Below the pieces are notes generated by a model. The model had not been told where the DNA came from and searched no databases. It was given only the letters and a program-made list of their open reading frames with translations. Positions 9,113 through 10,212 of a stretch of DNA of 63,581 nucleotides are shown here, piece after piece; position 1 is the stretch's first letter, and each line of letters starts with the position of its first letter. The position numbers were made by a program, and so were the translations under genes. The DNA lies in assembly GCA_021647905.1 (NCBI GenBank), contig JAKITW010000007.1, forward strand, positions 1 through 63,581, read 5' to 3'. The stretch is from Desulfobacterales bacterium (GTDB lineage Bacteria; Desulfobacterota; Desulfobulbia; Desulfobulbales; BM004).

Positions 9113-9159
9113 TGGCGTCCCCGACGGGATTTGAACCCGTGTCGCCGGCGTGAAAGGCC
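9113..9159 (-). repeat. att-like 47-bp duplication of tRNA-Glu 3' half
   Basis: These 47 bp are identical to 10135-10181, the 3' half of the intact tRNA-Glu from the anticodon loop through the T arm to the encoded CCA. Identity stops at both edges. A direct repeat of a tRNA 3' half is the classic mark of tyrosine-recombinase integration: the intact tRNA is regenerated at one end and the old 3' half remains at the other. The 1,022-bp offset delimits a small cassette with the NYN gene. No integrase is present between the repeats. Confidence 0.9.
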
Positions 9160-9386
9160 ATACTCAAAGCACACCTCTTCATGATTTCAGTTGGTTATAA
9201 ATGACAAAAGTGGCTCAAAACGGCTAAAACGGACAAGAGAAGCCCTCAAAAAAGCCACCAGCTTTCTTCCGTTTTTTATTCAATGGAGCTTGCATAAAGT
9301 AAAGGTTTTTCTCTTGACAGAGGATGATTATATTATGTAGAGAGTGTAAATAAGTTTACTACCCCTATGGTTTCGACCTAGGGTGC

Positions 9387-9416
9387 GGGGTCGCTTCGGC
9401 GGCCCCTGCTTTTTTC
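9387..9416 (+). terminator. TTCG-loop hairpin with U-run just before the NYN gene
   Basis: GGGGTCGC, a TTCG tetraloop and GCGGCCCC form an eight-pair stem (one T-G wobble) followed by six T at 9410-9415, only 12 bases before the ATG at 9428. It has the form of an intrinsic terminator inside the leader, so it could attenuate the NYN gene or end a short upstream RNA. A TTGACA at 9314 has no well-spaced -10 partner. The remainder of 9160-9386 shows no gene. Confidence 0.55.
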
Positions 9417-9427
9417 TGGGGTTATAA

Positions 9428-10051
9428 ATGCGAACATCGATCTATGTTGATGGTTTTAATCTCTACTACCGAGCCCTCAAGGGTTCTCCCTACAAGTGGT
9501 TGGACTTAAAAGCGTTAACAGCCAACCTCTTGCAGCCCCACCATATTATCGCTGAAATTAAATACTTCACTGCCATTGTTTCCGGGAATATCGATCCCGG
9601 ACAACCGATCCGTCAGAAGACGTACATACGGGCACTTGAGAAATATGTGCCCGAGGCTTCCGTGTACTATGGCCACTTTTTGAGCCATCCGGTCTCGGCG
9701 CCGCAATACCCTTTAACCAATCCGCTTCAGTTCGCTAAGGTTATGAAGACGGAGGAAAAGGGCTCTGATGTCAACATGGCGGTTCATATCCTGAATGATG
9801 CCTGGCTTGACAGGTATGATTGTGCCGTGATCATATCGAATGATAGTGATCTGGCAGAGTCGTTGCGCCTGGTTCGTGAACAGCACAACAAAGTGATCGG
9901 CCTGCTTTCTCCGTTGATCAACGGGCATCCCTCCCGGGAACTCCAGAAGCATGCCCATTTTGTCAAAAGAATCAGAAAAGGGGTTTTGAAAATTTCACAG
10001 TTGCCTTCCCCCATCCCTGGATCTACCATTCGCAAGCCGCAAGGCTGGTAA
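9428..10051 (+). CDS. NYN-domain (PIN-like) putative RNase
   Basis: A 207-residue protein of the NYN/LabA-like PIN superfamily. Acidic metal-binding residues are at the expected places: YVDGFNLYY (Asp8), the EKGSDVNMA segment and ISNDSDLAE. These proteins are generally small metal-dependent ribonucleases; the target is unknown. It is the only gene between the two tRNA-Glu-derived repeats and is lower in GC than its neighbours, which suggests acquisition. A terminator hairpin precedes the ATG, and a strong bidirectional terminator follows the stop. NYN genes are common in defence and mobile contexts, but a defence role here is only inferred. Confidence 0.88.
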   Translation: MRTSIYVDGFNLYYRALKGSPYKWLDLKALTANLLQPHHIIAEIKYFTAIVSGNIDPGQPIRQKTYIRALEKYVPEASVYYGHFLSHPVSAPQYPLTNPLQFAKVMKTEEKGSDVNMAVHILNDAWLDRYDCAVIISNDSDLAESLRLVREQHNKVIGLLSPLINGHPSRELQKHAHFVKRIRKGVLKISQLPSPIPGSTIRKPQGW

Positions 10052-10092
10052 GAGTCGAGATAGATTTACCCCAACCATTTATCCGAAAACAA

Positions 10093-10129
10093 GAAAAGGG
10101 GTTAGCCATTCACGGCTAACCCCTTTTTA
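10093..10129. terminator. Bidirectional intrinsic terminator between NYN gene and tRNA-Glu
   Basis: A perfect stem, GGGGTTAGCC / GGCTAACCCC, is flanked by A-rich and T-rich tracts on the two sides. It can terminate the NYN transcript rightward and the tRNA-Lys/tRNA-Glu transcript leftward. It begins six bases beyond the tRNA-Glu CCA. Confidence 0.9.
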
Positions 10130-10134
10130 TTACT

Positions 10135-10212
10135 TGGCGTCCCCGACGGGATTTGAACCCGTGTCGCCGGCGTGAAAGGCCGGTGTCCTGGACCTGGCTA
10201 GACGACGGGGAC
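10135..10212 (-). tRNA. tRNA-Glu (anticodon TTC)
   Basis: The minus-strand sequence starts GTCCCCG and pairs with CGGGGAC; discriminator G and an encoded CCA follow. The anticodon loop reads CTTTCAC with anticodon TTC. The T arm contains GGGTTCAAATCCC. The gene is complete (78 nt with CCA). Its 3' half is duplicated at 9113-9159. It lies 16 bp downstream of tRNA-Lys and is probably co-transcribed with it. Confidence 0.97.

Follow-up and report, generated by a model that had tools for sequence, protein, structure and literature searches.

An NYN-domain nuclease gene and a small structured RNA in an integrase-less tRNA-Glu cassette: a putative RNA-controlled toxin module

The window examined here is the whole 63,581-nt stretch of contig JAKITW010000007.1 from a Desulfobacterales bacterium. 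Within it, an exact 47-nt direct repeat delimits a unit of 1,022 bp, measured start to start. One copy completes an intact tRNA-Glu gene and the other stands alone at the distal end (Table 1), and both extend from the CCA end of the tRNA to slightly beyond the anticodon. Because a search of the entire source genome (118 contigs, 2.73 Mb) with the cassette and the tRNA pair returned these two copies and no third, a chance origin of the repeat is excluded in practice. The gene for a 207-aa NYN-domain protein is the sole substantial sense open reading frame between the copies, and no integrase gene lies inside the unit. At 46.2%, the GC content of positions 9160-10134 is lower than that of the window (56.9%), a value equally low in 16 of 608 windows of equal size. 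The unit is neighboured by tRNA genes, by a rhomboid gene on its left and by an RdgC-like gene. The initial annotation of this DNA had reported a perfect copy of the tRNA-Glu 3' half 1,022 bp from the intact gene, an NYN gene between the two and no remaining integrase, all of which our analysis bears out. It had also reported a bidirectional terminator; the hairpin is real and was recovered by a terminator scan on the minus strand, but its bidirectional character is a reading by eye.

Table 1. Positions of the features of the tRNA-Glu cassette in the window
Feature	Position	Strand	Basis or remark
47-bp repeat, distal copy	9113..9159	-	repeat comparison; 100% identical to proximal copy
Candidate sigma70-like promoter	9314..9341	+	TTGACA, spacer 16, weak second hexamer TGTAGA, 9/12; ends 10 nt before the start of the RNA model; absent from a stricter scan
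Structured RNA (model R1), ~65 nt	9352..9415	+	R1 80.9 bits, E 8.5e-25; hairpin 1 9363-9383, hairpin 2 9385-9409, T run 9410-9415; intrinsic-terminator-like end
NYN-domain nuclease gene, 207 aa	9428..10051	+	Pfam NYN, PADLOC HEC-09, phrog_7929
Terminator hairpin adjoining the intact tRNA end	10094..10127		scan flags minus strand only; T run also on plus strand, by eye
47-bp repeat, proximal copy (tRNA-Glu 3' half, CCA end to anticodon stem)	10135..10181	-	repeat comparison
tRNA-Glu (ttc), intact	10135..10212	-	ARAGORN; Rfam tRNA
tRNA-Lys	10229..10304		upstream of tRNA-Glu

Two other features of the surroundings were observed. The RdgC-like gene is short (10645-11250, 201 aa, PF04381 E 4e-9) and is found beside the tRNA-Lys-Glu pair in many relatives. 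The window also holds two perfect 7-bp tandem repeats, CCCTGCA x9.3 (8091-8155, beside the rhomboid gene) and CTGACCC x12.6 (45-132).

We compared the tRNA-Glu site with that of related genomes. Of 58 genomes, the source genome included, 54 had a match to the tRNA-Lys-Glu region, and 29 tRNA-Glu loci of relatives were compared. By DNA, the cassette was present in none of the 29, many of which have an RdgC-like gene on the 5' side, and the NYN protein was found in just 4 of the 57 other genomes of the order. The invariant conservation in relatives that the initial annotation had named as counting against its reading is thus absent. Units bounded by an extra copy of the tRNA-Glu 3' half occur in relatives, namely a 2.7-kb unit encoding a BrnA antitoxin and a WYL protein (G044), a 2.3-kb unit with two open reading frames lacking a Pfam match (G035) and a 12.3-kb, integrase-bearing, Zot-encoding island (G026). 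tRNA-Glu is therefore an insertion site in the order. Neither an empty site, which the initial annotation had proposed to look for, nor a circle was found; in the relatives, the rhomboid gene that lies left of the cassette is on other contigs or beside tRNA-Leu, and no junction could be demonstrated. Exact matching of a 32-base tRNA-Glu pattern, the single test made for a viral attP source, gave no hit among viral contigs. The small integrase-less units of this kind in relatives include those at loci L197 and L199, one of which encodes BrnA together with WYL.

NYN genes are also associated with tRNA and tmRNA ends in other genomes. Such a 3' end faced the NYN gene within 450 bp at 7 of 45 cellular loci (43 of them distinct), compared with 4 of 293 other open reading frames of the same loci (Fisher p 1e-4); the RNAs concerned were Glu, Gln, tmRNA, Ser, Lys, His and Cys, and 36 of the 43 distinct loci were not near a tRNA 3' end. 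Direct repeats holding a tRNA or tmRNA 3' end enclosed the NYN gene at 5 of the 41 distinct cellular loci with sufficient flanks (flanks were too short for this test at 8 of 89 loci). Beside the 1,022-bp unit of the window at tRNA-Glu, these are units of 1,087 bp at tmRNA (L013), 1,162 bp at tRNA-Met (L023), 1,802 bp at tRNA-Arg with a frameshifted NYN gene (L178) and 1,337 bp at a tRNA sequence recognised by eye (L185). The repeats in L013 and L023 extend roughly 90 bp past the tRNA end. In L023 the NYN unit is part of a tandem tRNA-Met att array (L023:771-12579), other units of which include an integrase, a beta-lactamase-fold protein, AbiEi/AbiEii and a metallo-hydrolase-like protein, among others. 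This array is the best hint that integrase-less units might use a neighbour's integrase. No integrase-bearing unit adjoins the unit of the window; elsewhere in its genome there are six tyrosine-integrase matches, and no tRNA was found in those six loci.

Repeats around NYN genes that do not hold a tRNA end were set aside (L012, L042, L047, L048, L071, L072, L075, L083, L182, L187, L188, L193 and L196), those of L182, L193, L072 and L196 being coding or low-complexity by eye. Two of these loci have a repeat arrangement of their own: at L188:3275-10050, the NYN gene and its neighbours are surrounded by four ~110-bp structured repeats, and at L187:6955-9480, three 70-bp repeats flank the NYN gene and a neighbouring gene as separate units.

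The initial annotation had offered two origins for the cassette, a minimal satellite and a shrunken island. The description as a minimal, tRNA-bounded, integrase-less unit stands, with similar NYN units of about 1.0-1.8 kb in four other genomes, but the distal copy has no terminator, which argues against simple integration. Erosion of a larger integrase-bearing island down to a single module would agree with the Zot-encoding island at the same tRNA-Glu in a relative and with the greater length of the L178 and L185 units, of which L178 has a broken NYN gene. We nevertheless find this origin doubtful, if possible, given that the 1,022-, 1,087- and 1,162-bp units, found at tRNA-Glu, tmRNA and tRNA-Met, share their content and suggest a discrete unit, and that integrase-sized debris would not fit in the ~1-kb units.

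The terminator also favours a different origin of the distal repeat, namely duplication of the tRNA region rather than site-specific integration. In all five same-family relatives with 100 readable bases of tRNA-Glu flank, the tRNA is directly followed by a terminator-like hairpin, and part of such a hairpin is visible in a sixth (by eye). The terminator of the window resembles these native ones and lies inside the unit, at the intact tRNA, and nothing similar follows the distal copy. Its position speaks against plain insertion: either the element carried in a terminator of its own and the native one disappeared from the distal flank, or the repeat has another origin. Duplication does occur at this site, the tRNA-Lys-Glu pair of one relative being tandemly duplicated 410 bp apart (L208:1359-1939, G040). 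However, the copy in the window ends at the anticodon region, where tRNA att sites often end, NYN genes are enriched near tRNA and tmRNA 3' ends as described above, and tRNA 3'-end repeats recur at four other NYN loci, so that we consider a duplication unlikely. Sequence comparison, then, partly supports the cassette as a mobile unit.

The protein encoded by the cassette was characterised by profile and structure searches. A Pfam scan (E<=0.001) matched NYN alone (E 5e-12), PADLOC HEC-09 (PDLC04163) matched residues 2-207 of 207 (E 1.6e-40), and the PHROGs match was phrog_7929 (E 7e-54), a family without an assigned function. NCBIfam gave no match for the protein, and a sequence search of solved structures gave none at E<=1. 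The AlphaFold model, built from a 17-row alignment (pLDDT 92.7, pTM 0.84), matched VPA0982 (2qip; Z 16.6, 3.6 Å over 156 residues) and the NYN domains of MARF1 (Z 16.3 and 15.7), and the next-best fold matches, 5'-exonucleases with Z of about 9, were far below these. Four aspartates, D8, D114, D139 and D141, are invariant among the 17 homologues aligned. In the Bacteroides fragilis NYN protein the probable active site consists of three aspartates, one of which was shown to be essential (PMC11346440), and the aspartates of the window protein appear to occupy the same positions. The modelled NYN/PIN-like fold and the conserved acidic residues together indicate that the protein is probably an NYN nuclease.

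HEC stands for Hma-embedded candidate (PMC12111858). A defence role argued from correlation was rejected, because the one passage found that names HEC-09 points the opposite way, reporting a correlation with phage susceptibility and not with resistance. We also rejected IbfA as an identity for the protein, IbfA being HEC-04, an ATPase-TOPRIM protein. An NYN homologue on a Pseudomonas syringae plasmid (L242:1474-2430) is annotated nicB (6-hydroxy-3-succinoylpyridine 3-monooxygenase), which is probably a misannotation.

The hairpins that had been described as a leader of the NYN gene are real (-28.6 kcal/mol for positions 9352-9415, z -3.5), but they belong to a conserved RNA with covariation of its own, and the cargo is therefore two-component rather than one-gene. 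The scan found a Rho-independent terminator between RNA and NYN gene (hairpin 9387-9406 and T run), just before the NYN start. The same two-hairpin element stands before nearly all homologues inspected (upstream DNA of 20 of 23 loci from one genome scan, and two more). When the window was compared by blastn with seven near homologues, the RNA upstream of NYN was matched in all seven; the match began at the RNA in six, in L008 it took in about 50 nt more on the upstream side and so reached the promoter region, and there was no match downstream of NYN. The conserved core of the unit comprises the RNA partner and NYN. In 25 of 36 loci, a promoter-like site scoring at least 9/12 immediately preceded the RNA (mean 9.4, compared with 7.6 for shuffled sequences). 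In the window stretch, Rfam recognised the tRNAs alone, and no family attained its gathering score at the RNA; 18 homologous loci yielded RNAI and tRNA only.

Covariation was assessed in an alignment of 32 leaders, chosen by hand out of the 58 of 89 loci with a simple T-run pattern. This alignment contains 17 base pairs, of which 15 show compensatory changes on both sides. Paired cells amounted to 96.5% (80.5% after shuffling) and covariation to 0.582 (0.245 after shuffling), values reached in 0 of 500 shuffles in either case, and pairing dropped to 32-61% when partners were slid; these controls leave some relatedness in, and the structure was derived from the same 32 rows. Helix 2 covaries, with 99.7% of its cells paired.

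The RNA is closely linked to NYN genes. Across 82 sources, R1 gave 50 matches at E<=1.1e-5, every one beside NYN, and 25 of the 50 had not been used in building the model. Among 395 genomes of the phylum, 27 encode NYN, and R1 lies beside it in 17 of these (E<=1e-3). The remaining 10 have no R1 match at that threshold, and nine of them (L116 aside) have other hairpin and T-run leaders or a divergent RNA, by eye. R1 matched genome-wide in 60 of the 395 genomes at E<=0.01, most of these matches being weak and probably due to chance. NYN or its remains were present at 15 of 30 RNA loci inspected, and at 13 of the best 14 R1 matches in the 395 genomes, the other being an orphan (L218). RNA-only matches without NYN were also found at L223, L224, L225 and L227. 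The orphan copy (L218:1501-1567) adjoins a gene that by eye resembles fumarate hydratase.

The RNA might be no more than a cis-acting leader: an attenuator, or an autoregulatory element of the NYN mRNA whose binding or cleavage by the nuclease would hold down NYN expression. The usual arrangement would suit this, the terminator-ended RNA lying directly upstream of NYN and on the same strand in 45 of the 50 strong R1 matches, and NYN enzymes do cut RNA (PMC11346440). Yet in four related mycobacterial prophages the RNA lies downstream of NYN in convergent orientation, in L049 the RNA and the gene diverge, and an RNA copy can exist as an orphan. A second RNA class, likewise with two hairpins and a T run but different in sequence, is divergent from NYN in L005, L006, L073, L190 and L196 and has TTGACA upstream in most of them (by eye, from single-sequence folds). 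The RNA is single-copy in the window and tandem at other loci: L009 and L040 have two copies each, the small enterobacterial plasmids L034/L038 have four hairpins followed by a terminator and then NYN, and L240/L247 have RNA repeats of about 53 nt. Since the RNA is tandem in some loci and convergent or divergent in a few lineages, it is probably more than a leader, and we judge a purely cis-acting role to be improbable.

The state of the NYN gene bears on what the RNA may do. At 6 of the 15 loci with both RNA and NYN, the gene is damaged by fragmentation, a frameshift or a stop (G079, G258, G360, G210, G062 and G092), and the RNA beside these genes still scores 37-79 bits. We read this sequence pattern as loss of a toxin with the antitoxin left behind, although assembly errors could explain some of the cases. 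An RNA that activates or guides NYN, like the noncoding RNA of some reverse-transcriptase defences, would fit the tight linkage, the conserved loop and stem positions and the orientation independence, but is very unlikely because an RNA that outlives its damaged NYN gene fits an antitoxin more than a cofactor and alignment A2 has no variable guide segment.

Homologues of the NYN protein were found in 3 phage records, 443 plasmid records and 53 viral contigs. By record titles, the cellular homologues belong to Desulfobacterota-like bacteria, Ignavibacteria, Nitrospirae, Gamma-, Beta- and Alphaproteobacteria and Thermaceae. The RNA accompanies NYN genes in several phyla, in plasmids and in prophages.

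We consider it probable, with moderate confidence, that the unit is an integrase-less tRNA-Glu cassette carrying a two-component module of an NYN-fold endoribonuclease and a small structured RNA, similar to type III toxin-antitoxin and AbiF systems but built on an unrelated toxin. The computed basis comprises the repeat, the RNA with its covariation, the association of this RNA with NYN in different phyla and mobile elements, its tandem copies, the orientation independence in some lineages and the acidic residues. In such a module, the RNA would have a promoter of its own, be produced in excess and end at its terminator, and occasional read-through past that terminator would yield the NYN mRNA. 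The RNA would then bind and silence the nuclease. If the RNA supply were lost, for instance when a phage stops host transcription, free NYN nuclease might cut cellular or phage RNA. The cassette itself may owe its place here to site-specific recombination by an integrase from another source.

More tentatively, the module could represent a widespread and undescribed RNA-controlled toxin or phage defence, in which an NYN nuclease is held by a trans-acting RNA in several phyla, on small plasmids and in prophages, and which in places takes the form of a bare 1-kb tRNA-targeted cassette moved by the integrases of other elements. If this is true, toxins neutralised by RNA have evolved from one more type of nuclease in addition to ToxN-like proteins and AbiF, and the defence candidate HEC-09, listed as a protein, is a protein-RNA pair. 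Assays that clone the HEC-09 open reading frame without the RNA, or with the RNA unawares, would then mislead. Homologues reside on small mobilisable enterobacterial plasmids, and the claim is therefore directly testable in a laboratory strain. The cassette also illustrates the small size that a tRNA-bounded unit may have. A literature search, mostly without subscription papers and bioRxiv, found no NYN toxin with an RNA antitoxin.

Among known systems, the mobile context recalls cis-mobilisable elements (CIMEs) at tRNA genes. Like these, the window unit has att-like flanking repeats, one of which completes a tRNA, and no integrase, and L023 offers an array with an integrase-bearing unit. Unlike them, the unit of the window has no such unit as a neighbour. 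PADLOC HEC-09 is matched by the NYN protein across its length, but the PADLOC entry is a protein model, and the window neighbours are tRNAs, a rhomboid gene and an RdgC-like gene, not Hma genes. With the CRISPR-associated NYN protein, VPA0982 and MARF1, the protein shares the NYN fold (Z 15.7-16.6 for 2qip and MARF1) and conserved acidic residues, but identity is ~17%, and the accessible text of PMC11346440 describes no comparable RNA partner.

Type III toxin-antitoxin loci consist of a promoter, an RNA, a Rho-independent terminator and a nuclease open reading frame, and are found on plasmids and prophages (PMC5086642). The NYN loci share with ToxIN, CptIN and TenpIN an RNA, a terminator, a nuclease gene and the occurrence on plasmids and in prophages; a candidate promoter precedes the RNA at many of the loci, and the RNA is tandem in several homologues. 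They differ in that the toxin is not ToxN, CptN or TenpN (Pfam finds NYN only, and the predicted fold is NYN/PIN-like), that the RNA of the window is a single-copy, two-hairpin element rather than a demonstrated pseudoknot, whereas type III antitoxins are tandem arrays, and that the NYN-linked RNA can be convergent or divergent. In the AbiF system of Clostridioides difficile, the noncoding RNA RCd22 (RF03085) lies upstream with a terminator, read-through occurs, and the RNA neutralises the toxic protein in cis and in trans (PMC12373285). The cassette likewise has a noncoding RNA with a terminator upstream of a protein gene, but AbiF is an Abi_2 protein and the window protein is NYN only by Pfam, and neither the window stretch nor any of 18 homologous loci matches RF03085. 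As the layout is that of type III and AbiF systems and the protein that of neither, we describe the NYN module as one that may work like these systems, not as a member of either.
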